A DNA stretch of 64,000 bases from Candidatus Zixiibacteriota bacterium (GTDB lineage Bacteria; Zixibacteria; MSB-5A5; GN15; FEB-12). The position numbers were made by a program, and so were the translations under genes. This document shows, piece by piece, positions 41,992 through 59,288 of this stretch; the first letter of the stretch is position 1; every line of letters begins with the position of its first letter. The stretch spans positions 248,001-312,000 of the forward strand of contig JAOUBJ010000002.1 of assembly GCA_029860345.1 (NCBI GenBank), in the 5' to 3' direction. The notes under the pieces were generated by a model. The model saw only the letters and a list, made by a program, of their open reading frames with translations. It was not told where the DNA came from and did not search any database.

Positions 41992-42531
41992 ATGCACGGA
42001 CTGGTCACATTGTTGCCGGATCCATTCTACGAACAGGTCGAAGCGATCTGGGATCGCCTTGAACAACGGTGCGGACTGAACGGGATTCGAGTTACGCCGT
42101 ACCCGCACTTTTCCTGGAATATTGCCGAACATTATGACTTCGAGCGGTTGGAAGATTTGGTCCGGCAGCTATCCACGGATATAGCTCCCTTTCCAGCAAG
42201 CACAGCCGGGCTGGGGCTGTTCACCGGCGAGAATCCGGTGGTGTACATGGTGGTTGTCCGAAATGAGGCTCTATCCGGTCTGCATAAACAGCTTTGGCAA
42301 ACGGTCGCAGGGGCATGCGATGACCTAAGCCTGTTGTACGCTCCCGAAGTATGGGTGCCCCACATTAGTCTTGCCTACGAGGATGTAGACAGAGAGAATC
42401 TTCGGCAGGCTATGAGCGAACTGGCTTTTGAGACCTACAACTGGAGGTTTGTCGTTGACCACATAGCGTTTATTCGTGAGAGTGAGGGACAGGTAGGTGA
42501 ACTTAAATGGAAGATACCTCTGGGTCGATGA
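41992..42531 (+). CDS. 2H phosphoesterase / 2'-5' RNA-ligase-like protein
   Basis: 179 residues with the two histidine motifs of the superfamily: PHFSW (about 38-42, HxS) and PHISLAYE (about 122-129, HxS). They lie symmetrically around the beta-sheet core as expected. Such proteins hydrolyse cyclic phosphodiesters of nucleotides or RNA. The gene begins 11 bases after the methyltransferase with GGAGCG upstream. The family is clear from the paired motifs; the substrate is unknown. Confidence 0.82.
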   Translation: MHGLVTLLPDPFYEQVEAIWDRLEQRCGLNGIRVTPYPHFSWNIAEHYDFERLEDLVRQLSTDIAPFPASTAGLGLFTGENPVVYMVVVRNEALSGLHKQLWQTVAGACDDLSLLYAPEVWVPHISLAYEDVDRENLRQAMSELAFETYNWRFVVDHIAFIRESEGQVGELKWKIPLGR

Positions 42532-44500: not shown

Positions 44501-45865
44501 ATGAGCGACCGAGCTACTTTGGGTGGGAAAGATAAATCTTCATTGGCAGGGTCTTCCGGGGTGTTCGTGGCTATCTTGTCGTTGGCCGTGTTCTGCTGGG
44601 CAGCCTCTGCCTGCCAGTCGGCGTCCGCGTCCGAATCCAACTACCAGGTAGTTCGCACCGATGAACCGATTTCATGGCTCGTAGCGCGCGACTCGGCCCT
44701 CGCGCTGGGGGGACAGCTTGCGGCCATCACATCTCAGGCCGAGCAGGATTTGGTCTTAGCTTTGCTGGCCTCCGAGGATACGGCTTGGATAGGTGGCTCC
44801 GATGTTGTCGTTGAAGGCAGATGGGCCTGGTACTCGGGCGAACGATGGAGCTATGCGCAATGGGCGGCTGATCAGCCGGAATCGTTGGTAACTTTCGATT
44901 ACCTGCAGATGCTGGCGCCGGAGGGCGGAGACTGGCAGGCCGGAGCGGAGCATACCGATGTGTTCGTTGTGGAGTATCCCTGTTGTGGGGGATCAACGGG
45001 GAATGTCGATGGGGATACTGCCGAGAGCGTCGACATTGCAGACCTGGTCTTTCTGGTCGACTTTGTTTTCACAGGAGGAGCCCATCCATTCTGCACCAAC
45101 GAAGCCGATCTGGACGCCAGCGGACGTATCGACATTGCCGATTTGGTGTTCCTGGTCGACTTCATGATGCGCAACGGTTCGCCGCCCCCGGCGTGTGCAC
45201 CGGCACGAATCGACGTGTACGACACGGTGGTCATAGTCGACAATACCGGCAAGCCATGGGACATTTCATACGGTGTACATTATTACGGTATGGATGTGCA
45301 CGATTTCCATGGTGGTTACGGGCCGTTCTCGTTGGAACCGATCATAGACCCGGTGTTTTCCTCGCCCGGTGACGGCGATTATCCGGAACCGGACGAGGAC
45401 TTTCCCATGCTTGGTATCACTCTGCTGGGTGAGAGCCGAGCCTATAAGCTCAAGGACATGCTGTCGCGTGAAATCGTCGATGACGACTTTTTCGACAGCA
45501 TCTTCGTTGCCGCCACCTACTGACCGATAGCCGGGCAGGCCGTCGTGTACGGCCGCGAGATAGACGGTAATGTCCTCACTCTGTCGGCCAGCGGGTGGCT
45601 GTATGACGATCTGTTTGTCCTCTATGATTACGAGACCGAGACAATATGGTATCCGGTCAATCTGGGTCAGGCCGGGTTCGGTTGCGGTTGCGTACTATGG
45701 GGGATCGCCGGTCAGTACGCCGGACGTATGGTGCAACCAATGCCGTTTCTCAACACCACCTGGAACATCTGGTTTGGTGGTCATCCGGACAGCAAATTGA
45801 TGGAAGAGTACCAACCCGGCGACGGTATTGCAAGTGACACCAGTTTGCCCGGCGACTCACGATAG
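44501..45865 (+). CDS. Probable selenoprotein: secreted C-type-lectin / dockerin / DUF3179 protein with in-frame TGA
   Basis: Read through the TGA at 45521-45523, the frame encodes 454 residues. In order they are: signal peptide (VFVAILSLAVFCWAASA), C-type lectin-like domain (about 48-162, with LGGQLAAITSQAEQD and WIGGSDVVVEGRWAW), two dockerin-like repeats (about 170-230), and a DUF3179 domain (about 240-454). DUF3179 proteins have a conserved V-x-x-TYCP motif followed by VVxxRxVDG. Here the sequence is VAATY-TGA-PIAGQAVVYGREIDG, so codon 341 replaces the invariant Cys. The frame continues without further stops through FVLYDYETETIWY to TAG at 45863. A stem-loop at 45538-45554 follows the TGA. 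The simplest reading is selenocysteine; a Cys-to-stop mutation (TGC/TGT to TGA) is the alternative. The end overlaps the convergent DinB gene by nine bases. Confidence 0.78.
45521..45554 (+). promoter_or_regulatory. Putative bacterial SECIS element after in-frame TGA
   Basis: The TGA at 45521-45523 is followed by 14 bases and then a perfect six-bp stem GGCCGT (45538-45543) / ACGGCC (45549-45554) around the loop CGTGT. Twenty bases separate the TGA from the apical loop, and G is the second loop base. Both fit the bacterial SECIS pattern (16-37 bases; G in the first two loop positions). Confidence 0.65.
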
Positions 45866-46381
45866 GCTTCGAATCAGTCTTGTTGTTTCCGCCAGATGTT
45901 GGTCGTCGTGTTCACCGATGAACCAGGCCAGGTCCAAAAGCCGCATGGTCATCTTAATGTCGGGAAGTTCGATGGACTTCAGCACCTGGGCCTCGTCGAG
46001 TTTTTCCAACCTGCGCACGAAGGCCTCGCGCTGCCGTCGGAACTCGGTTAACAATTCAGTCGTCGCATCGTCGCGGTAATCAGCAACCTCTTTCAACGCT
46101 TTGATTACGTCGATGAGACTCTCCGGCTGGGCTGCTTCCAGGTACATGTCAAGGCGCCGGTTGAACACGACATCGGCATTGATCAGGTGGCCGAGCTGCT
46201 CGTTGAGGCACCAGCCACCGACCGGTCTTCTGGTCATTGAAGTCTTAGGACAAAAGTGCACCAGAGTTTCCAGACGGACCGGAGTACCGCGCAGTCGCTC
46301 GACAAAGCCGGGGAACAATCCCGCGGGAGCTTCAAACGTGAAGGCTCGGTCACGCCATTTGATAACCGTCGCCATGGTCAC
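45857..46381 (-). CDS. DinB/DfsB-family protein (second of a tandem pair)
   Basis: 174 residues from GTG 46381, or 172 from ATG 46375. A four-helix bundle with metal-ligand motifs LGHLINAD (about 63-70) and GEHDDQHLAE near the C-terminus is typical of DinB-like metal-dependent enzymes, many of which use bacillithiol or mycothiol or have unknown substrates. It overlaps the end of the upstream paralogue by four bases, so the two are cotranscribed. The pair share LRGxPxRLE and EHDDQH and evidently arose by duplication. Confidence 0.85.
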   Translation of the reverse strand: MTMATVIKWRDRAFTFEAPAGLFPGFVERLRGTPVRLETLVHFCPKTSMTRRPVGGWCLNEQLGHLINADVVFNRRLDMYLEAAQPESLIDVIKALKEVADYRDDATTELLTEFRRQREAFVRRLEKLDEAQVLKSIELPDIKMTMRLLDLAWFIGEHDDQHLAETTRLIRSLS

Positions 46382-46908
46382 TTCGTTCCACCGGGCAGGG
46401 CTTTGATTAACTGTGTGATCAGGGCGGCATGCTGGTCGTCATGTTCGGCGGCGAAGAAGGCGAGGTCGACGATTCGCATCGGTTGACTCAACCGCGGATG
46501 CATGGCCGAGCGGGCGGCATCGTCATCCGATAACCGCTCCAGCCGGGCCACAAAGTTCAAACGCAACCGACCGAAGTCGGCCAACAGGTCCGGCAGCGCA
46601 CGCGCGTTGTGATCGGCTTCTTGTGTTTTGCGGTTTGACATGTCAGCCGCGACCAATTCGTCGACACCCGACAATAGCTGCTCAAGGCGTGCGTCCCACA
46701 ACGGATGTACATCGGACAGATGCCCGATGTGCTCTTTGATCGACCAGCCGTTGTCAATATGCCGCCCCAGAGCTTCCTCCGACAGTGATTGCGTCATCTC
46801 TTCCAACCTGAACGGCATGCCACGCAATCGTTCAACTATGCAGGGGAGCATCCCGACCGGGAAATCAAAGTTGAACTTGCGGTCAATCCATCGCATCAGT
46901 GTTACCAT
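46378..46908 (-). CDS. DinB/DfsB-family protein (first of a tandem pair)
   Basis: 176 residues from ATG 46908. Ligand motifs are IGHLSDVH and AEHDDQHAALI. An in-frame start 75 bases upstream would add [14 protein letters not shown], which is translated Family E repeat sequence, so I reject it. An AAGGA sequence lies upstream of the chosen ATG. It is a paralogue of the next gene and overlaps it. The likely role is metal-dependent thiol transfer or hydrolysis, unproven. Confidence 0.86.
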   Translation of the reverse strand: MVTLMRWIDRKFNFDFPVGMLPCIVERLRGMPFRLEEMTQSLSEEALGRHIDNGWSIKEHIGHLSDVHPLWDARLEQLLSGVDELVAADMSNRKTQEADHNARALPDLLADFGRLRLNFVARLERLSDDDAARSAMHPRLSQPMRIVDLAFFAAEHDDQHAALITQLIKALPGGTK

Positions 46909-47383
46909 AAAACGTTCCTTCTTGACGTGTGTCATTCCTGCGAAAGCAGGAATCCAATCTTTGATCTCGTACAATGAAACCATCTCAGCGGTTTCACCAT
47001 CGGCGGTCCAAGTAGGGCGGGTCCGTCTTAGCCTGCGCGCCGCGGCGTGAATCCGCCATGGAGGAACAGCAGAACCAGAAACGGTTCTGCCCTACTTCTG
47101 CGCACAAGTTACGACCTGCGAAGCCTTCGGTCAACCTGAGTGTGCGGGCTATGAATCGGGTACCCGGCCTTAACAGTTGTTAGGTGCAGTCAGGCGACGT
47201 GCCTGCCTTTCTCGGTGTAGCACGGTAGCTATCGGGCGGGGTCGCCCAACAGCACCTGAATGCTGGTGCAAAAAATGTGATAGACTTCCTGCTCCCCTGT
47301 ACGTATACTTGCTGACATCACTAACCAATCGTGTAGGTCGAAGCTCAGTCGGTTTCGGCTTGGCAATTTGAAAGGAGTAATTA
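46909..47383. other. Repeat-bearing divergent intergenic region
   Basis: It contains a Family E palindrome (TTCCTGCGAAAGCAGGAA, about 46935-46953) directly upstream of the DinB gene, a Family B copy at 47012-47057, and a GGCGGGGTCGCCC block near 47235-47250. The promoters of both divergent neighbours must lie here. No RNA gene or small protein was recognised. Confidence 0.6.
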
Positions 47384-47776
47384 ATGTCAGAAGGAAAACC
47401 TACCGCCGGTATGTTCTGTTGGAACGAATTGATGACCCGCGACACCGAAGGCGCTTCCAAGTTCTACTCCGAGTTGTTGGGCTGGAGCCCGACCGACTCA
47501 GGCATGCCCGGCATGAAATACACGCTGATGAAAGTCGGTGACAAAGATGCCGGTGGCATGATGACGATGCCGCCGGAAGTCCCGGAACAAGTACCAGCGC
47601 ACTGGATGTCATATGTTACCGTAGACGATGTTGATGCGGCTGCGGCCAAAGCGCCGGAACTGGGCGGCCAGGTCATGCACGGACCGGCGGACATTCCGGG
47701 TGTTGGTCGTTTTTGTGTCGTTCAGGACCCGGGCGGCGCGACGTTCGGCATGATCACTTTCCCGAAGGGTGAGTAG
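47384..47776 (+). CDS. VOC family (glyoxalase-like) protein
   Basis: A 130-residue cytoplasmic protein with the paired beta-alpha-beta-beta-beta modules of the vicinal oxygen chelate fold. FCWNELMTRDTEGASKFYSELLGW begins the first half and WMSYVTVDDVDAAAAKAPELGG the second. QDPGGATFGMITF is the typical end. Such proteins include glyoxalases, dioxygenases and antibiotic-binding proteins; the reaction here is unknown. The start follows an excellent AAAGGAG. Confidence 0.9.
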   Translation: MSEGKPTAGMFCWNELMTRDTEGASKFYSELLGWSPTDSGMPGMKYTLMKVGDKDAGGMMTMPPEVPEQVPAHWMSYVTVDDVDAAAAKAPELGGQVMHGPADIPGVGRFCVVQDPGGATFGMITFPKGE

Positions 47777-48132
47777 CCGACCGGATTCTTATGTAGGTCG
47801 AAACCCCTGGTCCGAAGGACGGCCGGAGGCGGGTTTCGACATCCGGAGATCCCACAGCAAGCTGTGGGGCACCCGGCAGACCTGCCACACGCGGCAGGAG
47901 TGAGGGCACTCCTGTCCTCGAAGACTGATGGATGATTGGACGGCAGCATCTCTATGGTGCTGCCGTTGTTTTGGTGGGGGGGTGACCCGGACTTTAGTCC
48001 GGGTTTCGAGATGATGAGATATCAGCAGACTTGTCGGTTTCTGTCATGCCGGACTTGATCCGGCATCCAGTTGTCTGTGCGAAGACTGGATTCCGGGTCA
48101 AAGCCCGGAATGACAAGGCGTTTTACTCGATG
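47777..48132. other. Repeat-rich region between convergent genes
   Basis: A Family D repeat lies at about 47801-47840. It is followed by GCAAGCTGTGGGG and CTGCC-GGCAG-type hairpins, a terminator-like stem at 47941-47965, then two CCGGACTTGATCCGG / CCGGGTCAAAGCCCGG palindromes (48050-48118). No gene is apparent. Confidence 0.6.
47941..47972 (+). terminator. Likely terminator hairpin
   Basis: The stem CGGCAGCA / TGCTGCCG with a nine-base loop is followed by TTGTTTT, 165 bases downstream of the VOC gene. It could end that transcript. Confidence 0.6.
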
Positions 48133-51100
48133 TCACCGAAAGTCCCTGCTCTTTAACTTGATTCTTTCACCGTTCAAGGTCATTGGTTCGAAGTGGACGC
48201 CGATCACGTTGGCTACGCCGTCCTTTTTTTCAAGTGTTCCTTTTACCAAAAGTGCCCGCGAACGCACAATCACCTTGCGGAAACGAGTCAGCATGTTCGG
48301 CTTGACCACGATATTGGCAAACCCGGTCTCGTCCTCAAGTGTGATGAACATAAACCCCTTGGCCGTCATCGGACGTTGACGGATTATTACCACCCCGGCC
48401 GTTCGAACGATCTTCCTTGTCGACATCTCAAAAAGATCAGCCGCCGAAGCAATACCGCGCGCTTTAAGCGATGGACGCATCATGCTCATCAGATGCGGCA
48501 GGGTCGACAAGTCCAGTCCCTTGAAGTCGGCGACCAATGTTTCCATCGTGGTCATCTCATCAAGCAGTTTGTCACCCCGCTCATCGGTATCCATCGACAA
48601 AGCGCCCTGTTCCTGGTGCACCAGTGAGAGTATTTGCCAAAGCGCCTGACGGCGGCTGTATCCGAAACAATCAAAAGCGCCGGTCATAGCCAGTTGTTCC
48701 AGCGCGCCCTGGTTGAGTTTGGTGCGGTGCATAAAATCCTCGATCGAGGCAAACGGCCCGGCGTCAAGCTCCCGCTCGATCAGATCCCTGGCCGCCTCGC
48801 CCAAACTCTTCACCTGGCAAAACCCGAGGCGAATCGATTTGCCTTCCACGGTACAATCCCATCGGCTTATCGCAACATCGACCGGCAAGAATTCCAAACC
48901 GCGTCGTTGCGCCTCGTAGACCACGGTCGACGGATTGTAGAAGCCCATCGGTTGCGAGTTCAAAAGCGAACAATAGAATTCCTGCGGGTAGTACACTTTG
49001 AGATAAGCCGAGACATAAACCAAAAGAGCGAACGAGGCAGCGTGCGATTCGGCGAATCCGAAATCGGCAAAGGCGGACAGTTGATCGAAAATGCGCAGGG
49101 CGGCTTCGTGGGGGATACCTTTGTTTTTCATGCCGTTGATCAACCGTTCACCCAAGGCTCGCATCTTTTCGTGCGAACGTTTGTGCCCCATGGCGCGGCG
49201 CAGTTCATCCGCCTCGCTGGGTGTGAATCCGGCCGCGGCCACAGCAACCTGCATCCCCTGTTCCTGAAACAGGGGGATACCCAAAGTCCGTTCGAGAATC
49301 GGTTCGAGGCAGGGATGCGGGTAGGTGATTGCTTCCTCGCCGTTGCGTCGCCTGAGATAGGGATGCACCATGTCACCCTGGATAGGTCCCGGTCGGATCA
49401 GGGCGACCTCGACGACCAGGTCATAGAACCTTCGCGGTTTGTGGCGGGGCAGGGGGTTCATCTGGGCGCGCGATTCCACCTGAAACACTCCAACCGTGTC
49501 GGCGGCGCAAATCAGATCGTACACCCGTGGATCATCGTAGGACAGTTTGGCCGGGTCTATAGTGACGCCGCGTTGCTCTTTGATCAGTGTGAACGCTTCG
49601 TCCAAAAGCGAAAGCATGCCCAGTCCGAGTAGATCGATCTTCACGCAGCGGGTTGCCTCGGCATCGTCTTTGTCCCATTGGATAACGGACCGCTCCGGCA
49701 TGGTGGCATTCTCGATCGGCACCACCTCCCACAACGGTTGTTTGGTAATAATCATACCGCCGACATGGATACCCAGGTGACGCGGGAAGCGGGCGATCTC
49801 GGCGCAGAGATGCACCAGGAGTTGTACGCGACGGTCGCGGCGGTTGAAACCGGCGTCGATAATCTGTTCATCCATATCATCGCCGCTCGAAAAATGATCC
49901 AGCAGCTTGGCCAGCTTGTCGACTTCGTCCAGAGAGAACCCGAGCGCCTTGCCGACATCGCGCACCGCCGAGCGTCCACGATAGCTGATTACTTCACAGA
50001 CCATAGCGGCATGACGACGACCGTACTTGTTGTAAACATACTGGATGACTTCTTCACGCCGGTTGTTGGCGATGTCGATATCGATATCGGGTGGTTCGGT
50101 GCGCTCCTCGGAGACGAATCGCTCGAACAAAAGTTTTAGCTTGATCGGATCGACCGCGGTTATCTCAAGACAATAGCAAACGGCCGAGTTGGCCGCCGAG
50201 CCGCGTCCCTGGCAGAGAATACCGTTCTCATTGCAGAAACGAGCGATGTCCCAGACGATCAAAAAGTATCCGGACAATTGGAGTTTCTCAATTATGTGCA
50301 GTTCATGTTCCAGTTGTGTGAATACCTGCGGCGTCATCTGGTCGTAGCGGCGGTCGGCGCCCAGGTAAGTGAGGCGTCTGAGATAGCTGTGTGTAGTTTC
50401 ATGCGGCGGCACTTCAAAGTCGGGTAACGTCGTGTTCAACTCTTCCAGAGAAAAGTTGCAGCGCTCGGCGATAGCAACGCTGTTGGCGATTGCCTCGGGG
50501 TAGCGTCGGAACAGCCGTACCATTTGCGATGGTGCTTTCAGGTATCTTTCGGCATTGGGATACAGCAAGTCATTGGCCGCGTCGAGCGTGGTGTGGTTCT
50601 TGATACAGGTAAGCACATCCTGCAAGCGGCGTCCGTCGCGAGTGGCGTGATGGACATTGTTGGTCGCCACGGTTGGAATCGACAAAGTGTGTCCGAGTTG
50701 TGTCAGTTGGTCGCACAGGGTTTCATGTGTTGGTAGATTATGGTGTTGTAGTTCCAGGTAGAAATTGTTCAGCCCGAACAGGTCGCGATATTGTGCGGCT
50801 ATACGTCGTGCTTCGGTATAATCATCGTTCAATAGGGCCGTCGGTATTTCTCCCAGGATACAACCGGAGAGCGCGATCAATCCTTCAGAGTGTCGCGCCA
50901 AAATGTCGCGAGTGATTGTTGCTTCGTTCTTTTTGTTTTGCAAATGGGCTTCTGAGAGCAATTGCGATAGGTTGGCATAGCCGACTGAGTTCTTGACCAA
51001 CAGCACAAGATGGTGTCCGTGGGTGAGTGTGATCTCGGCGCCGAAAATCGGTTTGATCCCATGTGCGACAGCAGCCTGGTGGAATCTGACGATACCATAT

Positions 51101-51231
51101 AAACCGTTGTGGTCGGTGATGGCCAGGGAGCCATAGCCCAACTCAGCGGCGCGCACGACAAGGTCTTCCGGGTGTACGGCGCCATCAAGGAAGGAGAAAT
51201 TGGTGTGGGCGTGTAGTTCAACGTAGTTCAT
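48133..51231 (-). CDS. dnaE2: Error-prone DNA polymerase III alpha subunit, DnaE2 type
   Basis: About 1032 residues, the usual length for DnaE2 (shorter than replicative DnaE1). The N-terminal PHP domain begins YVELHAHTNFSFLDGA. The palm catalytic motif is PPDIDIDIANNRREE, followed by the HAAMVCEVISYRGRSA segment; GRGSAANSAVCYCLEI and the C-terminal OB fold (VIIRQRPMTAKGFMFITLEDETG) are clear. It works with ImuA and ImuB in SOS-induced translesion synthesis. I place the start at ATG 51231. Fifty-five residues upstream in frame are translated Family A and D repeats. A GTGATAAATCAC inverted repeat sits three bases before the start codon. It is separated from imuB by 400 bases of repeats. Confidence 0.93.
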   Translation of the reverse strand: MNYVELHAHTNFSFLDGAVHPEDLVVRAAELGYGSLAITDHNGLYGIVRFHQAAVAHGIKPIFGAEITLTHGHHLVLLVKNSVGYANLSQLLSEAHLQNKKNEATITRDILARHSEGLIALSGCILGEIPTALLNDDYTEARRIAAQYRDLFGLNNFYLELQHHNLPTHETLCDQLTQLGHTLSIPTVATNNVHHATRDGRRLQDVLTCIKNHTTLDAANDLLYPNAERYLKAPSQMVRLFRRYPEAIANSVAIAERCNFSLEELNTTLPDFEVPPHETTHSYLRRLTYLGADRRYDQMTPQVFTQLEHELHIIEKLQLSGYFLIVWDIARFCNENGILCQGRGSAANSAVCYCLEITAVDPIKLKLLFERFVSEERTEPPDIDIDIANNRREEVIQYVYNKYGRRHAAMVCEVISYRGRSAVRDVGKALGFSLDEVDKLAKLLDHFSSGDDMDEQIIDAGFNRRDRRVQLLVHLCAEIARFPRHLGIHVGGMIITKQPLWEVVPIENATMPERSVIQWDKDDAEATRCVKIDLLGLGMLSLLDEAFTLIKEQRGVTIDPAKLSYDDPRVYDLICAADTVGVFQVESRAQMNPLPRHKPRRFYDLVVEVALIRPGPIQGDMVHPYLRRRNGEEAITYPHPCLEPILERTLGIPLFQEQGMQVAVAAAGFTPSEADELRRAMGHKRSHEKMRALGERLINGMKNKGIPHEAALRIFDQLSAFADFGFAESHAASFALLVYVSAYLKVYYPQEFYCSLLNSQPMGFYNPSTVVYEAQRRGLEFLPVDVAISRWDCTVEGKSIRLGFCQVKSLGEAARDLIERELDAGPFASIEDFMHRTKLNQGALEQLAMTGAFDCFGYSRRQALWQILSLVHQEQGALSMDTDERGDKLLDEMTTMETLVADFKGLDLSTLPHLMSMMRPSLKARGIASAADLFEMSTRKIVRTAGVVIIRQRPMTAKGFMFITLEDETGFANIVVKPNMLTRFRKVIVRSRALLVKGTLEKKDGVANVIGVHFEPMTLNGERIKLKSRDFR

Positions 51232-51631
51232 AGGTGATAAATCACTTTTTCGCGCTTGGCGGCGTTGTAGTGTCATGCTGAGCGCAGTCGAAGCATGAGG
51301 TTGCAACGCGCACGGTTTTGTAGGTCGAAACCCCTGGCCCGAAGGGTCGTCCTGAGCGCAGTCGAAGGACGGGTCTCGACAAACCAAAAACCCCACAGCA
51401 AGCTATGGGCCACCCATGACTCGTGGGCGGGTCCGTCTTCGAATCCGCCAACTTCGGCAGGATCACAGGGATCCTGCCCTACTGGTACCGTGGCGCATGA
51501 GGACGTACACCACGCACAGTAACACACTTGTTGTATAGTCCAAAGGCTGTCAGGCGAGTCACCTGACAGCACAGACAAATCCGCGTGGCGTATGAGGACG
51601 TACACCACGCACAGTAACACACTTGTGTGCA
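51232..51631. other. Repeat island splitting the imuB-dnaE2 cassette
   Basis: It contains one GTGATAAATCAC box (51234-51245), Family A at 51273-51300, a Family D/A composite (51321-51383), a partial Family B (51428-51450), and two Family C units (51489-51518 and 51583-51612). No gene is present. The cassette genes are normally adjacent, so this gap is likely due to repeat accumulation. Confidence 0.7.
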
Positions 51632-53182
51632 CTAGTCGAAAACACCTTGCAAAAACCATTGTGAACATGTGCGATCAAAAAAGAAAAGATACTGACGCCG
51701 GTCGTCGGTGTGTAGCTCATAGTAGAGACGGTCAAAACCACTCTGCCACCAACCTCCGGAAAGCCGCCAGGGACCGAACCATCGGTCGACCTTTTGTATG
51801 GCACCGTGACCATGTTTAATGGCCGACAGTCTACCGTTGCGAATGATCGCTTCAGTTTCTATCGGTGTCGGAAAAAGTCGCAGCCCGCCAATGTTATGAT
51901 TACAGTATGCAACCGTGGCCAAGGCGGAACAATTGTCTGTGGAGACAGAGCCTGAGCGCTTGCTGCGCCTGGTGTCATCAATGGGGGAGAGGCAATAATT
52001 CTGTTCCGGAAGCAGCGCCGGGTTAAGGGTTACGGTATACAGGTTGCGGTTTGGCAAGACAGTGTTCTTACCAGGGGGGCCGTCCTTTCGATGTTTATGC
52101 CGATGATCGAAACCAAGCTGTCGTGAAGGAAGCGGTGCGGTTGCATTTTGTGGGATAAGTACGATCAGGTCGGTGACACCGGAGGTGAGTTGCAAACGTT
52201 CCAGTTGGGAATGTAATTGTCGTGTGAGTTTCGTAAGGGAGAGAGTTGGTTTTTCAGTCGATACAATCACGGTTTCTTCGCGACGGTTGTCCAGAAACAG
52301 GGTCAGTGTGAGCCGACTTAAACCTTGCCCTGATTCTTTCAGATGGGCCAACAGGGGAGCCAGTAGTTTTTCGGTGTGATTTACAATGGCGGCTGTGTTG
52401 TAGATGCGATAGGTGAGATGCACCTTGTTCGAAATATCCATCCCCGGATGGATACGCACAAACTGTTGTCGATCATCGCCGCGCGACAGATGCGACAATG
52501 TTGCCCCTTCATGTCCGAAGCGCTGAGCCATTTCATTCGATGGAAACTCAGCCAGCCGTCCAATCGTTTTGAGACCCAAATTGCGTAATGATTCGAGAGT
52601 GTCCGAGGATAGCTGCAGTTGTGAAATATCCAGATTCCGTATAAACGTGTCACCACCGTTTTGCTTTACAATAGTGTGATGGTCGATCTCGGTTGTTTCT
52701 GCGGCAACCCTGGCGATGAATTTGTTGTCACCGATACCTACCTTTACCGGATAACCGAGTGCCTTGACAACAACGATTATCTTTTCAGCGATAGTAGTTT
52801 CATTTTGATAAAGTAGTATAAGCCCGCTTACCTCCAAAAAGATACCAAGCGCACCGGAGATGCCTTTTGTGTAAATGCCGTCCTCCACAAAGGGGCCGAC
52901 TGTGCGAAGCGCGTTTAACAATTTCTGTGATTCATCTGTTTCCTTCTCGGTGTTGCGCACTTTGACGATCAAGTCGGGGCAGATTACGTGCGCCTGTGGA
53001 GCGGTACTGCCTATGAGTACGCCATATTCCAGGGCCGGCTGGTTCATGGCGGCAATCGGCGCTGTTTTGTGCCTGCCTTCGATGAGCACGAACGGTTGTG
53101 CGGCCAGCGATGGTTCTTTTTGGTAAAACATCTCCAGTGAAAAGGTGTCGATCAGTATACAGGCGATACGTTTGTTATTCAT
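51632..53182 (-). CDS. imuB: ImuB, catalytically inactive Y-family polymerase-like protein
   Basis: 516 residues. The N-terminus ACILIDTFSLEMF and the thumb region (LKTIGRLAEFPSNEMAQRFGHEGATLSHLSRGDD) match the Y-family. The acidic pair of the SxDE catalytic motif is missing (the segment reads FLEVSGLILLYQNE), as in all ImuB proteins. The C-terminal VDRWFGPWRLSGGWWQSGFDRLYYELHTDD ... WFLQGVFD is the ImuB-specific tail that binds partners. ImuB bridges DnaE2 and the beta clamp. It starts inside the end of imuA (eight-base overlap), indicating translational coupling. Confidence 0.92.
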   Translation of the reverse strand: MNNKRIACILIDTFSLEMFYQKEPSLAAQPFVLIEGRHKTAPIAAMNQPALEYGVLIGSTAPQAHVICPDLIVKVRNTEKETDESQKLLNALRTVGPFVEDGIYTKGISGALGIFLEVSGLILLYQNETTIAEKIIVVVKALGYPVKVGIGDNKFIARVAAETTEIDHHTIVKQNGGDTFIRNLDISQLQLSSDTLESLRNLGLKTIGRLAEFPSNEMAQRFGHEGATLSHLSRGDDRQQFVRIHPGMDISNKVHLTYRIYNTAAIVNHTEKLLAPLLAHLKESGQGLSRLTLTLFLDNRREETVIVSTEKPTLSLTKLTRQLHSQLERLQLTSGVTDLIVLIPQNATAPLPSRQLGFDHRHKHRKDGPPGKNTVLPNRNLYTVTLNPALLPEQNYCLSPIDDTRRSKRSGSVSTDNCSALATVAYCNHNIGGLRLFPTPIETEAIIRNGRLSAIKHGHGAIQKVDRWFGPWRLSGGWWQSGFDRLYYELHTDDRRQYLFFFDRTCSQWFLQGVFD

Positions 53183-54365
53183 TCAGCAATACCTCGGCGT
53201 GGGCACCTTCTGCGGATATTCTGCTTTTGGTGACGGTGACATTTATTCGTGAGCAGGCAGTGTTTTCTTCGCGTAGGGTGCGGCCTTGTGTCGCACCTTC
53301 TGATCGGTCGGGGTCAAGCCCCGACCCCACGCGTTGAGATAATGTTGCGGAGTAAGAGTCTTTGGTTGTCACCAGACGCGACACTTCCAGCCGCAAGGCC
53401 ACCATGCTGGCCGGAAGGAACTGTCTTGAATCGCTTGAGTTGTCGGTTAAAAAGATCACCAACGCTTTTGAACGAGAGACTTGTTGCCTTAGCCGATGCA
53501 ACAGATTGGACGATGGTGGCGGGTTCACGCCGCGGCGCGCAGGCGAAGACGGACCCGCCTTACAAGAAAGATTCGTGGTTTTCACAGCGCGCAAAGCGCG
53601 AGAAACAGGCTTGCCTGTCACCCTGAGCGCAGTCGAAGGGTGAGCACAAGTCAGGTCAACGACGACACTATCGACCATCTGATGTGACAAAAGCAACTCC
53701 GCGCTACGCAGGCCCATAACGAAATTGTCCGGCTTGACGACGGAAAGTTTTTCAATATCAACTCCACACGAGGCCGCCGCGGCCGGAAAGAACGAACCGG
53801 AAAGATCAATGTAGGCCACAGTCCCCGATTTGGTCAGAGTGGCCAGCATCATAAAAAGCAAACTTGTCTTGCCACAGCCGACAGCGCCGGTGATCTCGAT
53901 CAGTTGACCATAGGGGATACCCTGCCGGGGGAAAAGCGCATCAAGGCGTGAGATACCGGTGTGGAAAATCGGCTCCGACAATCCGTCTTTCGACAAAACA
54001 GCCTCGGGCCATTTTTGGATTATCAACTGTCGCAGTTGTGATAAATCACGCTGTGATAAATCACGTGGTAATAAATCACGCTGTGATAAATCACCATCAC
54101 CCCCGCTTTTTCTGTCACCCCCGCCTTTTCTGTCACCCCCGCGAAGGCGGGGGTCCATCTTCTTTTTTGAACCGACGGAGGAACAGACTGGATTCCCGCC
54201 TTCGCGGGAATGACAAGAGGTGGACGGGACTGACGAAGAGGTGGACGGGACTGACGAAGAGGTGGCCGGGACTGACGAAGAGGTGGCCGGGACTGACGAA
54301 GAGGTGGCCGGGGATGACGAAGAGGTGGCCGGGAATGACGTGTGGGTGGAGTTGTCAGTGTTCAC
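53175..54365 (-). CDS. imuA: ImuA, RecA-like mutasome protein with in-frame repeat insertions
   Basis: The RecA-fold core is clear: [24 protein letters not shown], Walker [10 protein letters not shown], then [10 protein letters not shown] and the strand SVVVDLT. Directly after that strand lies an insertion of about 45 residues ([12 protein letters not shown] through ARRGVNPPP) that is translated Family A and Family B repeats (53518-53643). The core resumes at [22 protein letters not shown] second repeat-like stretch, [13 protein letters not shown], occurs near the C-terminus. The N-terminal 110 residues are also repeat-derived: PATSSSV units (21-bp repeat, 54211-54335), [15 protein letters not shown] (Family E), and LSQRD units (15-bp repeat). 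The GTG start at 54365 is therefore doubtful. It overlaps imuB by eight bases. Whether it remains functional is unknown, but the frame is intact. Confidence 0.8.
53518..53643. repeat. Family B + Family A repeats inserted in frame within imuA
   Basis: A reverse-orientation Family B unit (53518-53562), an ACAGGCTTGCCTGT palindrome (about 53605-53618) and a Family A unit (53618-53643) lie consecutively inside the imuA reading frame, without breaking it. Confidence 0.85.
54038..54094. repeat. Four tandem 15-bp units containing GTGATAAATCAC
   Basis: Units start at 54038, 54053, 54068 (diverged) and 54083. Each contains the inverted repeat GTGAT-AA-ATCAC. They lie within the N-terminal part of imuA. 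The same 12-mer is found at the dnaE2 ribosome-binding position (51234-51245). Confidence 0.8.
54211..54335. repeat. 21-bp tandem repeat (six copies) in the imuA 5' region
   Basis: The unit is TGACGAAGAGGTGGCCGGGAC, with two G/A variants; the first copy is 20 bp. It encodes PATSSSV repeats in the imuA frame and apparently grew from the end of an adjacent Family E palindrome (CGGGAATGAC). Confidence 0.85.
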
Positions 54366-55220
54366 AGAGTAGCAAACTACTTTCTGGTGCCTTGCACCTT
54401 GTTTATTTCATTTTGTAGGGCGGGTCCGTCTTCGCCTGCGCGCCGCGGCGTGAACCCGCTTTTGTTGGCAGGTCTCCAAGAAGAAGAGAGACCTGCCGTA
54501 CAAGACCGATCGTTCAATGTCTCACCCTTCGACTGCGCTCAGGGTGACACGGTCAAGCCGTGTTTCTACGGTCAAGCCGTGCTTCTACAGGCAAGCCGTG
54601 CTTCTACGGGCAAGCCGGGTTTCTACGGTCAAGCCGTGTTTCTACGGTCAAGCCGTGTTTCTACGGGCAAACCGTGCTTCTACGGTCAAGCCGTGTTTCT
54701 GAGGCTTCGCCTCCTTGTATGCACAGGGGGCGCGTAGCGCCAGAGACAGGCTTGCCTGTTTCGTTGTGGTGGCTGAGTCTTCAGACTCAGTCACAGAAAC
54801 AACTGCTGTTCACCCGCGCGATCTGAAGATCACACGGACACAAATGATAGACATCTGCTGTCGAAACCTGCCCTTCGACTGCGCTCAGGACAGTCCTTCG
54901 GACCAGGGGTTTCGACCTACAGAACTTGTCGCCAGAGACAGGCTTGCCTGTCGACTCTATATCCTATCGGTCGGCCTGCTCATTTGTGCAGTATATGGTA
55001 CGGAAAAATTCTGACTGTCCAATCACATATTTACCACTTCCATATCTCAAAAGGTATGCACCTGCCGGACAGGGTTTCCAGCTTGACCAATAGAAGACCG
55101 GAAGATAGATTGTACATATGCCCCGGCTACCAAATGGACAACAAAGCCCGTCCAGGCCAAACCACGCATTACTTGGATGGCCGTTAGGTATATGAAGGGA
55201 AAACGAGAAGGTAACTAATT
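54366..55220. other. Repeat island upstream of imuA
   Basis: It contains Family B (54415-54460), Family A (54520-54546), a 19-bp minisatellite (54549-54700), ACAGGCTTGCCTGT palindromes (54747-54760 and 54939-54952), and a Family A/D composite (54861-54922). The last 200 bases are AT-richer and unique and may carry the promoter of the small membrane protein. The open frames here are repeat translations. Confidence 0.7.
54549..54700. repeat. 19-bp hairpin minisatellite, eight copies
   Basis: The consensus unit is ACGGTCAAGCCGTGTTTCT, repeated head-to-tail eight times with a few substitutions. Each unit can fold as ACGG-TCAAG-CCGT. There are no unique spacers, so it is not a CRISPR array. Confidence 0.88.
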
Positions 55221-55583
55221 ATGTCAATACTACTGGAACTGATTATTTTTGGCGCAGTGGATTTATTGTTGGAATCATTAGCGTGGGGTACATGTGGGTA
55301 CATCTTTTTCCGGTTCATTGGAATCAACAAGAAGTACTGGTATTGGGATTGTCTTTTTGTTTTTGCTGTTTATTTACTTTGGTTGTTTTGGTCTAATGCC
55401 TTCGTTATGTCGCTGGATATATCGATCAGCAATCAGGAATTCCTGACTCTTATTGATAATGACGTTAGTGGTTTGTTCGAAACGGATTACTTCGATGTCG
55501 TTATCGGTGCGCTGGAGATATTCTTGGGATATCTGATTGGAAGGCACGTGTTGGGGAAACTGACACGCCGGCAGACTGCTTAA
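55221..55583 (+). CDS. Hypothetical small membrane protein
   Basis: 120 residues, not recognised. Three hydrophobic segments can be seen: LLELIIFGAVDLLLESLAWG, YWDCLFVFAVYLLWLFWSNAF and VVIGALEIFLGYLIGRHVLG. They are separated by an acidic loop and followed by a short basic tail (KLTRRQTA). The base composition is more AT-rich than that of the surrounding genes, consistent with recent acquisition. ATG 55221 follows GAAGGTAACT, a good Shine-Dalgarno sequence. The neighbours give no functional clue. Confidence 0.6.
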   Translation: MSILLELIIFGAVDLLLESLAWGTCGYIFFRFIGINKKYWYWDCLFVFAVYLLWLFWSNAFVMSLDISISNQEFLTLIDNDVSGLFETDYFDVVIGALEIFLGYLIGRHVLGKLTRRQTA

Positions 55584-55643
55584 AAAGATACAAAGAAACC
55601 CGCAGCAAGCGGATGGGTCTCTCACAAACAGGGCAATATTGCT

Positions 55644-56111
55644 ATGATCGAACAACTGCTTGAAGCCTGGCGCACCAACAACCGAATCAATCTGTTCCTG
55701 ATAGACAACATCTCAGGCGACGGCATGAAATGCACACTCTCCAAACGGGGCGGCCGCAACGTCGTCCGTCAGTTTGCCCACATGCACAACAACCGGGTGT
55801 GGCAGCTTGAAAGCCGGGCGCGTGATTTATCGAAGGACCTCTACAAGTTCGAGACCCACGAAGAACCGGACCGCACGAAGCTGAAAGAAAACTTCGAAGA
55901 TTCATGCGAGAGGGTAGAGGCGTTTCTGCACGATTGTCTGGCTCAGGTTCCCCGGCGCCGTTGTCTTAAGAAGGGTGTGATCTCGATGCTCAGTTACTTC
56001 ATCGCCCACGAGAGTCATCATCGTGGTAACATCCTGCTAACTCTCAAAGAGTGCGGGCACCCCCTGGATCAAGCCAGCCGCTACGCCATCTGGAGCTGGG
56101 ACAAGATGTAG
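55644..56111 (+). CDS. DinB-family protein
   Basis: 155 residues of the DinB four-helix metalloenzyme fold. Histidine motifs are FAHMHNNRVWQL (about 45-56) and FIAHESHHRGNILLTLKECGHPLD (about 118-141), followed by the typical ending ASRYAIWSWDKM. It belongs to a different subfamily from the tandem pair at 45857-46908. The function is not known. It is preceded by a spacer of 60 bases from the small membrane protein. Confidence 0.85.
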   Translation: MIEQLLEAWRTNNRINLFLIDNISGDGMKCTLSKRGGRNVVRQFAHMHNNRVWQLESRARDLSKDLYKFETHEEPDRTKLKENFEDSCERVEAFLHDCLAQVPRRRCLKKGVISMLSYFIAHESHHRGNILLTLKECGHPLDQASRYAIWSWDKM

Positions 56112-56151
56112 GTGGGCGGGTTTCAGATCAGAATCCTCCTATGGGGCATTG

Positions 56152-57366
56152 TTACTTTCGCCAGCTTCCTTTGTAATTGAGTTTGGACAAGAACTGATTC
56201 AAGGTCGCGTTCAGACTCCAACCTGTGACCACCGAGATTGTGATGGTGTGGCCCGACAGGTCAGTCCCGCCGGCATTAGAGTAGTCCACGAAATTGTGCC
56301 TGATCTGCGCGCCCAGGTACCAGCCTGTACGTCGGCTCAAGAACACACGTTGCCGCAGCCCAGCACTGGCGGCAAAGGATGAGTGCACTTTGACCGTCTC
56401 CGGGTCACCCGCCTTTTTCACACTTCTGATGGCGTTGTAACCCACGCCGACAAAGCAGTCGGTGCTGAATCTGCCATGGTCTATGAACTTAAGACCGAGA
56501 TCGAGACCGACCAGCCAACTGCCAAATCGATCCGTCTCCACAATGTGGCCCAGGCTATCGACCTGATACTTGTTTTTGGCCGACAGGAACCGGTAGTTCA
56601 ACACGAGATCACTGCGCCATCTATGTCCCTCGCCACCCATTTGTAGTCCGATTACCGGATGGTATCCCAGTATGCTGTTCTTCCCTTGCGGTCGCCAACT
56701 TCCAAGGACGATTCCAAAATGCCCGCGACCCGGAAAACGTTTCTTCGTCTGGACTACAAAGTCATCATACTCTTTGCGTAGCGCCGTCCCTTGCATTCCG
56801 TCCGCCTGGATGTTGGCGAAGGCGGAGTCAAACTCACCGGCGTAGAACTGTCCCAACGATTGTTCGGTTACAGAGGCCTCCGGTTTCAGCGAAATCTTTT
56901 CAGCCAGATCACTCCTGAAGCTGATGAAGCTGTCGTGAGTATTATCTGTGGGCTGATTGTGACCATAAAGCACACTCCACCATAGCCATCCGGCCATATA
57001 ATCTTGTTCGCTTCTGTACCACAGCATATTTGGTATTGTTGAGGAACCGACAAGAGAATCGTTGAAAAACCCATGATCGGTCAATACCAGCATCCGTGTG
57101 ACTTCGAGGCTACCCGCCGGACCACATTCTGAACGAATGTAGTCGATCACATCCAAAACCGAGTCCACCTGGTTGTCCTCATAAAGCCGCGGGGCCTGGC
57201 GTTCGAAATTGTAATGGTACTTCTTGCACGTGCCGGAGTCATCTTGGGTGAGGAAGTCGTGCATTCCTTCCAGTTCATTAGGCATGCGTTTAGTCACGGT
57301 AGCACAGGACATCAAGCAACTCAAGGTGGCGCAAAGGAGAACAGTTGGAATCGTTCGGTGTAACGT
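56152..57366 (-). CDS. Putative outer-membrane lipoprotein with non-standard start codon
   Basis: The body (about 390 residues) has a polar N-terminal half and a C-terminal half of alternating beta-strands (SDLVLNYRFLSAKNKYQ ... GSWLVGLDLGLKFID ... GWYLGAQIRHNFVDY) like a barrel. The family is not recognised. The conventional starts TTG 57324 and ATG 57312 fall inside a clear lipoprotein signal, HRTIPTVLLCATLSCLMSC, with lipobox LMSC. Extending upstream, the only position matching a Shine-Dalgarno sequence (GGGAGG, four bases away) is an ACG at 57364-57366, giving a signal peptide starting TLHRTIP. ACG may act as the start, or an ATG has mutated. It is convergent with the DinB gene. Confidence 0.6.
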   Translation of the reverse strand, partial: TLHRTIPTVLLCATLSCLMSCATVTKRMPNELEGMHDFLTQDDSGTCKKYHYNFERQAPRLYEDNQVDSVLDVIDYIRSECGPAGSLEVTRMLVLTDHGFFNDSLVGSSTIPNMLWYRSEQDYMAGWLWWSVLYGHNQPTDNTHDSFISFRSDLAEKISLKPEASVTEQSLGQFYAGEFDSAFANIQADGMQGTALRKEYDDFVVQTKKRFPGRGHFGIVLGSWRPQGKNSILGYHPVIGLQMGGEGHRWRSDLVLNYRFLSAKNKYQVDSLGHIVETDRFGSWLVGLDLGLKFIDHGRFSTDCFVGVGYNAIRSVKKAGDPETVKVHSSFAASAGLRQRVFLSRRTGWYLGAQIRHNFVDYSNAGGTDLSGHTITISVVTGWSLNATLNQFLSKLNYKGSWRK

Positions 57367-57550
57367 GGTTCCTCCCGGAAGCGAATTCGACTAATAGCAA
57401 GTTGCCTTTTTGCAGTGGGAGAAACATAGCACAGATTGGCCCGATTTGCAACCGGAACAACTCCCACCTTGACTTAGAATTGAAAACGGATATATTTGGT
57501 GTGTAATCACGCCCGTTACGTGAAAGGACAGTCGAGGTAAGGACACATCT

Positions 57551-58855
57551 ATGAAGACAATCATCGTTGGTCTGGCCGTTCTGCTGCTGGCATCGCTCGC
57601 CGCGCCGCCGCGTTTGGTGGCCGATGACTATTCCGGTACAATAAGAGTGTTCATCGTCGAGCCGGTTTCGCGCTGGGCCGACGGCAACGGCGCTGCCTAT
57701 GGTTTCGGTCTGCTTGACTTCGCACTGGTCGAAGATGTCGAAATCAAAGACTATGAAGCCTGGGAGCAGACGGTTGTGTTCAATCCCGGTGAGTCCGGAT
57801 TCACGGTGTCGCCCAGCAACGTTATGGCTCAGGCCGTATTGTTTAACGCCGATTTTATCGAGAAGGATTCTTACCCACCTTACGGATACCTGTTCGACGC
57901 ACATTATACCGACGCTGCCGCTCAGGTGCGACCGGGGCAAATAAGCGCTAACAGCACGGCGCTGGGATTTACCCACACCGCCTGGGTGGAGCAATCCGGC
58001 TCCGGCGGCTGAACGACTTGTCCTCAAGCGCGGGCCGCGCTTGCAACGGTTTACAACTCAGGGAGCTACAACTTTCTCTATTGCACGTTGGTCGGGGACC
58101 GCAATCCCAAAGCGTATGACCGGCTCGTATTCGGTTACAATTTCGCACTCTATCCCAGCACTTTTTTCGGTGGCGGATACCGCATCTACGCCGATGCGCC
58201 GGACAATTCACAGGAGTTTGCCGATCTGGTCGTCGACTGCGGCAATCGAGTGGTCCCGCCGATGGGTTTGATTCTCACTATGGAACCGGCCGAAGACAAC
58301 ACTTATGAGATACGGCTCAGAATCACCAACGGTATGCCGGCCAACGTTGCGCCGACCGATCCCAACGCACCTGTCGGCGAGTCGCAGGGTCTGGTTGATG
58401 TGGTGTATGAGTTCCGCGCCAGCACGTCCGACGGCGACAACGATCAACTGCTCTACCAGTGGGATTGGGGCGATGGCAATGTCTCGGGTTGGCTGGGACC
58501 GGTTGGTTCTGGGGAAAACTGTCTGGCCTCGCACAGTTGGCCGACCTTTGATACTTGCGGCATCAAAGTGCGCGTCAAGGATAGCTGGGAAGAGGTCTCC
58601 GATTGGTCACCGGAGCTAACTGTGGTGATCGGTCCGGAGTGTTGTCAGGTTCGTGGTGATGTTGACGACAGCGGTGGAGAGCCGGACATCTCGGATTTGG
58701 TCTACCTGGTCGACTTCATGTTCTCAGGCGGACCGGCTCCTCCATGCAACACTCAAGGTGATATTGATGCCAGCGGCGGTATTGATATTTCCGATTTGGT
58801 TTACCTGGTCGACTTCATGTTCACCGGTGGCCCACCGATTCCCGCTTGTCCCTGA
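57551..58855 (+). CDS. Probable selenoprotein: secreted thioredoxin-fold protein (UxxC) with PKD and dockerin-like domains
   Basis: Read through TGA 58010-58012, the frame encodes 434 residues. A signal peptide (IIVGLAVLLLASLAA) is followed by a beta-rich domain (about 27-140, SRWADGNGAAYGFGLLDFAL). Next is a thioredoxin-like domain (about 145-240): SGGUTTCPQARAALATVYNSG, FLYCTLVGDRNPKAYDRLV and the cis-Pro region LYPSTFFGGGYRIY. A PKD-like domain (LLYQWDWGDGN) and two dockerin-like repeats (DISDLVYLVDFMF) complete it. Codon 154 is TGA and Cys157 follows, so the CxxC site is UxxC. There is no other stop between the two halves, and codon use and domain order continue across the TGA. A perfect eight-bp hairpin begins 12 bases after it. 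A role in extracellular thiol-disulfide or peroxide chemistry is inferred. ATG 57551 has AAGGACA upstream. Confidence 0.82.
58010..58043 (+). promoter_or_regulatory. Putative bacterial SECIS element after in-frame TGA
   Basis: TGA 58010-58012 is followed by 12 bases, then CAAGCGCG (58025-58032), loop GGC (58033-58035) and CGCGCTTG (58036-58043), a perfect eight-bp stem. The apical loop starts after 20 bases and its first base is G. The distance is identical to that in the other candidate at 45521. Confidence 0.7.
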
Positions 58856-59288
58856 AGTTTTACTGGTAGCTATATCTGTGCGTGGTGTACGTCCTCGTGC
58901 GCCACGACCTTGTCACCCAGCGTTATGTCTTATGTCACCCTGAGCGCAGTCGAAGGGTGAATCCCATGACCATGGCTCATGCCTCGACTCCGCTCGGCAT
59001 GACAGGGCTCCGCGGGAAGCGCATCGGAGTCATCTCTTGTGCGTGGTGTACGTCCCCGTGCGCTACGACCGTGTCATCCAGCGTTACGTTCTATGTCACC
59101 CTGAGCGCAGTCGAAGGGTGAGCCTAGTCGAAGCAGGAACAGACGAAAACGTCCGCTGCCCACCGATTCCCGCTTGTCCCTGAAGTTTCACCGTTCGTCA
59201 CATTCGGATTGTCAGACAATCAAGACTATCGTATCTTCGTTGTGTAGCCCATACCTCAGATGCCCTTCAACGCACGAGGAGGTACAAA
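58856..59288. other. Repeat-rich spacer between two dockerin-protein genes
   Basis: Two Family C units (58879-58907, 59040-59068) alternate with Family A units (58934-58960, 58978-59003, 59096-59121), forming a duplicated C-A block of about 160 bases. Around 59159-59186 a 28-base copy of the end of the preceding gene (from GCCCACCGATTCCCGCTTG through the TGA and CCTGAAGTTT) is repeated, a sign of local duplication. No gene is present. Confidence 0.7.

Follow-up and report, generated by a model that had tools for sequence, protein, structure and literature searches.

In-frame TGA codons in two Zixibacteriota genes for putative secreted proteins are very probably read as selenocysteine

The window considered here is a stretch of 64,000 nucleotides from a Candidatus Zixiibacteriota bacterium (GenBank assembly GCA_029860345.1, contig JAOUBJ010000002.1, positions 248,001 to 312,000 of the forward strand), and positions are counted from its first base. 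It contains two plus-strand genes, gene 1 and gene 2, whose frames are open throughout apart from a single internal TGA in each. Both TGAs are followed, within the coding region, by an RNA hairpin resembling a bacterial selenocysteine insertion sequence (SECIS). An original prediction, made on the letters of the window, took the two TGAs as genuine selenocysteine (Sec) recoding sites in secreted proteins. The relevant features are these:

44501–45865, plus strand: gene 1, its internal TGA putatively read as Sec; 454 amino acids, with a C-type lectin-like domain, two dockerin-like repeats and the N-terminal half of a DUF3179 domain; ends at TAG
44642–44938, plus strand: C-type lectin-like domain of gene 1 (Pfam PF00059, 2.9e-5; C-type lectins in the PDB)
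44978–45199, plus strand: dockerin-like repeat pair of gene 1, read from the sequence; the same repeats occur on many proteins of the genome
45341–45808, plus strand: DUF3179 domain of gene 1 (Pfam PF11376, 2.5e-24; profile positions 7–149 of 292)
45521–45523, plus strand: in-frame TGA of gene 1, putatively Sec; UPIA at the CPLC/CPLT position of DUF3179
45538–45554, plus strand: SECIS hairpin 1, loop CGUGU at 45544–45548, 20 bases after the TGA; covariation in DUF3179 relatives
57551–58855, plus strand: gene 2, its internal TGA putatively read as Sec; 434 amino acids, with a signal peptide, an N-terminal beta domain, a thioredoxin fold, a PKD domain and two dockerin-like repeats; ends at TGA
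57980–58243, plus strand: predicted thioredoxin-fold domain of gene 2, with U129-T-T-C132 (mature numbering) and the invariant Pro177
58010–58012, plus strand: in-frame TGA of gene 2, putatively Sec; UxxC, with Cys in 18 of 47 homologues
58025–58043, plus strand: SECIS hairpin 2, loop GGC at 58033–58035, 20 bases after the TGA
58343–58615, plus strand: PKD domain of gene 2 (match to 4xed; PF18911/PF00801 in 29 of 33 family members)
58643–58840, plus strand: dockerin-like repeat pair of gene 2 (Dockerin_1 in 17 of 33 family members; D7 repeat)

Hairpin 1 (GGCCGU-CGUGU-ACGGCC) has a 6 bp stem and a folding energy of -8.9 kcal/mol, and hairpin 2 (CAAGCGCG-GGC-CGCGCUUG) an 8 bp stem and -11.3 kcal/mol. 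In both, as had been predicted, exactly 20 bases precede the first base of the loop and one of the first two loop positions is G, which places them within the bacterial SECIS model used (spacing of 16–37 bases, G in the first two positions of the loop, energy of -7.5 kcal/mol or lower). This model is loose, as it also accepts 7.8% of the 2290 TGAs on the two strands of the window, whilst the combination of spacing 20 with an energy of -8.5 kcal/mol or lower occurs at 0.35% of them. Thus the shared geometry on which the original prediction was built is uncommon, yet this class of hairpin is not specific by itself, and finding two at spacing 20 is suggestive. A stronger hairpin, at spacing 35, lies downstream of the TGA that ends gene 2. 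An Rfam search of the window at gathering thresholds returned one tRNA and no SECIS family. Since a hairpin of SECIS type close to a TGA is little proof alone, the case is decided by homologues and genome content rather than by geometry.

The host genome (4.76 Mb, 99.3% complete) encodes a SelB that exceeds the curated cut-off, preceded immediately on its strand by SelA, and a tRNA-Sec with anticodon UCA. Its selD gene has an in-frame TGA at the CAG-U-ASK site, a position that holds Sec in many bacteria (PMC13188914), and the loop of a hairpin begins 20 bases downstream. Formate dehydrogenase, usually the main selenoprotein, gave no match over cut-off, and its distant relatives lack a TGA. The original prediction had named a lack of SelB, tRNA-Sec and further examples as the outcome that would count against it; the genome holds both, together with selD, three DUF3179 genes with a TGA besides gene 1, and one further gene-2 paralogue. 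Family searches located seven Sec TGAs in the genome, all with the loop at 20–21 bases, and amongst Sec homologues it lies mostly at 18–21 bases (at 20 in 17 cases). A distance of exactly 20 bases is therefore simply SelB geometry, not the special trait of these two genes that it had been taken for. SelB is also widespread in the phylum, scoring above cut-off in 53 of 61 genomes.

DUF3179 is a catalogued selenoprotein family with the motif UxxC/T (PMC9312934; PMC13188914 Table 1). Gene 1 scores 86.7 bits against PF11376, above its gathering score of 27 bits. The genome has five DUF3179 genes, four of them with an internal TGA, and across 61 related genomes such a TGA is present in 24 of 28 DUF3179 genes and absent from four. 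Where the Sec column could be read it held TGA in 23 genes and a Cys codon in three. Gene 1 and its three TGA-bearing paralogues thus share with the known DUF3179 selenoproteins both the domain and a Sec codon at the same conserved Cys position, and one paralogue (L097) has the full domain and UPLC. Gene 1 differs from them in having the N-terminal half of the domain only, fused to a C-type lectin-like domain and dockerin-like repeats, and in lacking the second Cys. The residue three positions past Sec makes the motif UPLC in 17 of the 23 Sec genes and is Q, K or A in the other six; the subfamily of gene 1, with the motifs UPIA, UPLQ or UPLK, thus has no second thiol, and gene 1, with its UPIA, falls outside the UxxC/T subtype as defined by C or T at that position. 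The selenoprotein family of gene 1 is already catalogued, and what is unusual in gene 1 is the combination of domains. L097 (G000:C1:248443-249330), a full-length gene with UPLC and a long hairpin past its TGA, is a cleaner example of the family.

Gene 2 has no such ready affiliation: neither NCBIfam nor Pfam gives it a match above cut-off, although relatives match the PKD and dockerin models, with Dockerin_1 (PF00404) matched by 17 of 33 homologues and not by the window protein itself. In the PDB the AlphaFold2 model of the protein (pLDDT 94.7) matches many thioredoxins, with TMt of about 0.6–0.68, and a PKD domain from Thermoplasmatales (4xed). The TGA is the first position of UxxC, where the first helix of the thioredoxin fold begins, and the second Cys and a later Pro are invariant. 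In the model the UxxC would precede the first helix with the Pro opposite, as expected of a thioredoxin fold. The predicted fold, the active site before the first helix and the invariant opposite Pro are shared with the thioredoxin-fold structures 2cvk, 1t7p_B and 3vfi, from which gene 2 differs in that the domain is one of four in a putative secreted protein and in its low sequence identity (10–17%).

Signal peptides had been claimed for both proteins. That of gene 2 is evident by eye; that of gene 1 is less clear, with a hydrophobic stretch some 20 residues past the chosen Met. Dockerin-like repeats are indeed paired in each protein, at the end of gene 2 and internally in gene 1, but they do not mark out a set of selenoproteins, as very many proteins of these genomes carry them without a TGA.

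The gene-2 family is present in 51 of 132 Zixibacteriota genomes, and 44 of its 70 matches there contain a TGA. Across 47 distinct homologues the aligned codon is TGA in 29 and TGT or TGC in 18, with no other codon; both gene-2 paralogues of the host genome have TGA, and all homologues from Thermoplasmatota, which are archaea, have TGT or TGC. The Sec and Cys forms are neighbours in several genomes (loci L105, L110 and L113, and L021 with L077 on one contig). As homologues of gene 1 also have Cys at the aligned position, the TGAs do lie at conserved Cys codons, as the original prediction had it. One of the 70 phylum-wide matches contains a TAG, in a 5' fragment before the Sec position (G005:C320:4795-4983); it is the sole non-TGA stop seen in the family before that position, and the fragment is maybe a pseudogene or an error at a contig end. 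In a homologue of the Cys form (L024, G027:C268) an in-frame TAG lies between the PKD domain and the dockerin repeats, which may have been lost or may be read through.

These alignments bear directly on the idea that the genes are decaying and owe their TGAs to nonsense mutation or faulty assembly. Each frame is after all interrupted by a TGA, and other pairs of same-strand frames joined by a TGA occur between long open reading frames of the window. However, decay or error would hardly put TGA at one column in tens of independent genomes, never TAA or TAG, with Cys as the sole alternative codon. Nor does it fit the strong purifying selection past the TGA: against a 77% identical homologue, dN/dS of gene 2 is 0.06 before the TGA and 0.10 after it and, since it stays low there, the downstream region appears to be translated and functional. 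The chance that mutation or misassembly explains the TGAs is negligible. One of the joined pairs, at the TGA at 42529, is an ordinary gene boundary, and a gene-boundary reading was rejected for genes 1 and 2.

The hairpins track the TGA. Of the 35 Sec genes in both families together, 33 have one of -4 kcal/mol or lower past the site, in contrast to 2 of 18 gene-2 Cys genes (Fisher 1.4e-9); chance hairpins were considered and rejected. Compared with synonymous recodings, which leave each protein unchanged, the hairpin has a mean z of -1.7 in the gene-2 Sec genes and of -1.9 in the gene-1 Sec genes, but of +0.07 in the Cys genes. Because z is lowered in the Sec genes and not in the Cys genes, selection seems to act at the RNA level on the hairpin where the TGA is present. 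In DUF3179 the stem can be drawn in one register across all 23 Sec genes, with 98.6% of cells paired and 24 compensatory cells, and its covariation is 0.605 compared with 0.01–0.24 for slid partners.

Were TGA reassigned in general, or decoded with no SECIS by a near-cognate tRNA, as Trp for instance, the same open frames would result. However, TGA is the terminal stop of gene 2 and of other genes of the window, as had been pointed out in rejecting a global change of the code; the homologues have Cys and never Trp, the hairpins accompany TGA and not Cys, and a dedicated UCA tRNA-Sec is present. We give this possibility next to no weight.

The machinery, the TGA/Cys column of the homologues, the hairpins that track the TGA and the selection downstream of it all favour genuine recoding of the predicted secreted proteins. 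Several observations pull the other way. Besides the looseness of the SECIS model, a clear hairpin is absent from two TGA-bearing gene-2 homologues, the hairpin of the DUF3179 paralogue L094 of the host genome is no better than its synonymous recodings (p 0.435), and part of the DUF3179 covariation stems from a split into two subfamilies that differ in amino acids. A tRNA-Sec above cut-off was not found in 16 of the 61 genomes, some of them with TGA genes, though the compared genomes are metagenome drafts and the filter was strict, so that these absences are not to be taken at face value. Finally, the machinery, the codon alignment, the hairpins, the selection and the predicted fold are computational observations, and so is all evidence for Sec insertion. 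Taken together, it is very likely, judging from sequence, that both genes encode selenoproteins by way of the standard bacterial pathway.

From these results we infer Sec insertion, export and redox activity of the products along the following lines. SelD, itself a selenoprotein here, would supply selenophosphate, with which SelA would charge tRNA-Sec(UCA); SelB, bound to the coding-region SECIS hairpin some 20 bases downstream, would deliver the Sec-tRNA when the ribosome reaches the UGA. This is ordinary recoding of the standard SECIS/SelB kind, which does not differ substantively from bacterial recoding of the fdhF type (PMC13188914); the loops here are CGUGU, GUU/GUC and GGC/GGU. The products would then be exported. 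With its UxxC in a predicted thioredoxin fold, the gene 2 protein may be an extracytoplasmic thiol/selenol oxidoreductase, in which Sec would attack and C132 resolve, and its PKD and dockerin modules may keep it in an extracellular context. For gene 1 a UxxC dithiol cycle is less likely because the second Cys is absent; its Sec more probably works as a lone selenol partnered by a thiol from elsewhere, or serves as ligand to a metal or substrate.

As a rule UGA is recoded with low efficiency, and recoding might accordingly be partial or regulated, the truncated product (signal peptide and N-terminal domain) being functional in its own right and selenium supply switching between products. Truncation of the gene 2 protein would leave its N-terminal beta domain whole, with about 128 residues in the mature form. 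However, the active site begins at the TGA, and in several genomes it is a Cys paralogue, not a truncated form, that stands beside the Sec gene. A switch of this kind is improbable.

The family to which gene 2 belongs appears to be new to the catalogues. It is not evident in the 119-entry table of a 2026 review (PMC13188914), and within the open-licence literature, to which the search was confined, no relevant paper was found on Omp28 or on Zixibacteria in connection with selenoproteins. The nearest candidate for a known home is the Omp28-related selenoprotein family (NF045500, hypothetical protein GOS_C in PMC13188914), of which gene 2 could be a divergent member. Both have a thioredoxin-like UxxC and similar repeats at the C-terminal end, and around the CxxC some proteins of the gene-2 family score 15–18 bits against NF045500 or the model of the Omp28 lipoprotein. 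Against this, the curated cut-off is 200 bits, which no sequence in the 61 Zixibacteriota genomes reaches. The gene-2 family attains at most 18.3 bits on trimmed proteins around the active site, the trimmed gene 2 protein itself has no match, and the genome-wide NF045500 matches listed cover only the C-terminal repeat region. The gene-2 family also differs in its large N-terminal beta domain and its PKD domain. Membership is thus unlikely, if less so than a regulated switch, and gene 2 probably represents a selenoprotein family missing from NCBIfam, Pfam and the PMC13188914 table. On balance we favour a broader proposal: that gene 2 founds an uncatalogued family of secreted selenoproteins with beta, thioredoxin-fold (UxxC), PKD and dockerin domains, mostly of the Sec form in Zixibacteriota, which together with DUF3179 would make up much of the extracellular selenoproteome of the phylum.

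Other features of the window lie around and between the two genes. Two neighbouring DinB-superfamily genes (45857–46983, minus strand) lie immediately downstream of gene 1 and converge on it. Three successive minus-strand genes at 48133–54365 look like a mutagenesis cassette of ImuA (RecA-like), ImuB (Y-family) and DnaE2-type genes. Short head-to-tail repeat arrays at 54194–54361 and 54530–54719, with units of 21 and 19 bases, lie at and shortly before the beginning of the RecA-like gene, the 21-base array being in its reading frame and giving a repeated serine-rich stretch. Dispersed repeats, CCCTGAGCGCAGTCGAAGGGTGA and the longer TGTGCGTGGTGTACGTCC...CGCCACGAC, are found at 51271, 51345, 53616, 54521, 58933, 59094 and other positions; they are intergenic, near gene ends, and some form inverted pairs. 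A 34-base stretch covering the 3' end and stop codon of gene 2 (58830–58863) recurs with 97% identity 328 bases downstream (59158–59191), accompanied by dispersed repeats and resembling a local duplication.

With standard gene callers both proteins stop at the TGA, after 340 residues in gene 1 and 153 in gene 2. Automatic annotation of Zixibacteriota is thus likely to lose the active site of a family of putative exported oxidoreductases, as well as half of a DUF3179 protein. The occurrence of Sec and Cys forms of gene 2 side by side in one genome provides a natural comparison for asking why extracellular redox proteins keep Sec. Since the phylum uses Sec broadly, selenium supply should affect the surface proteins of Zixibacteriota.

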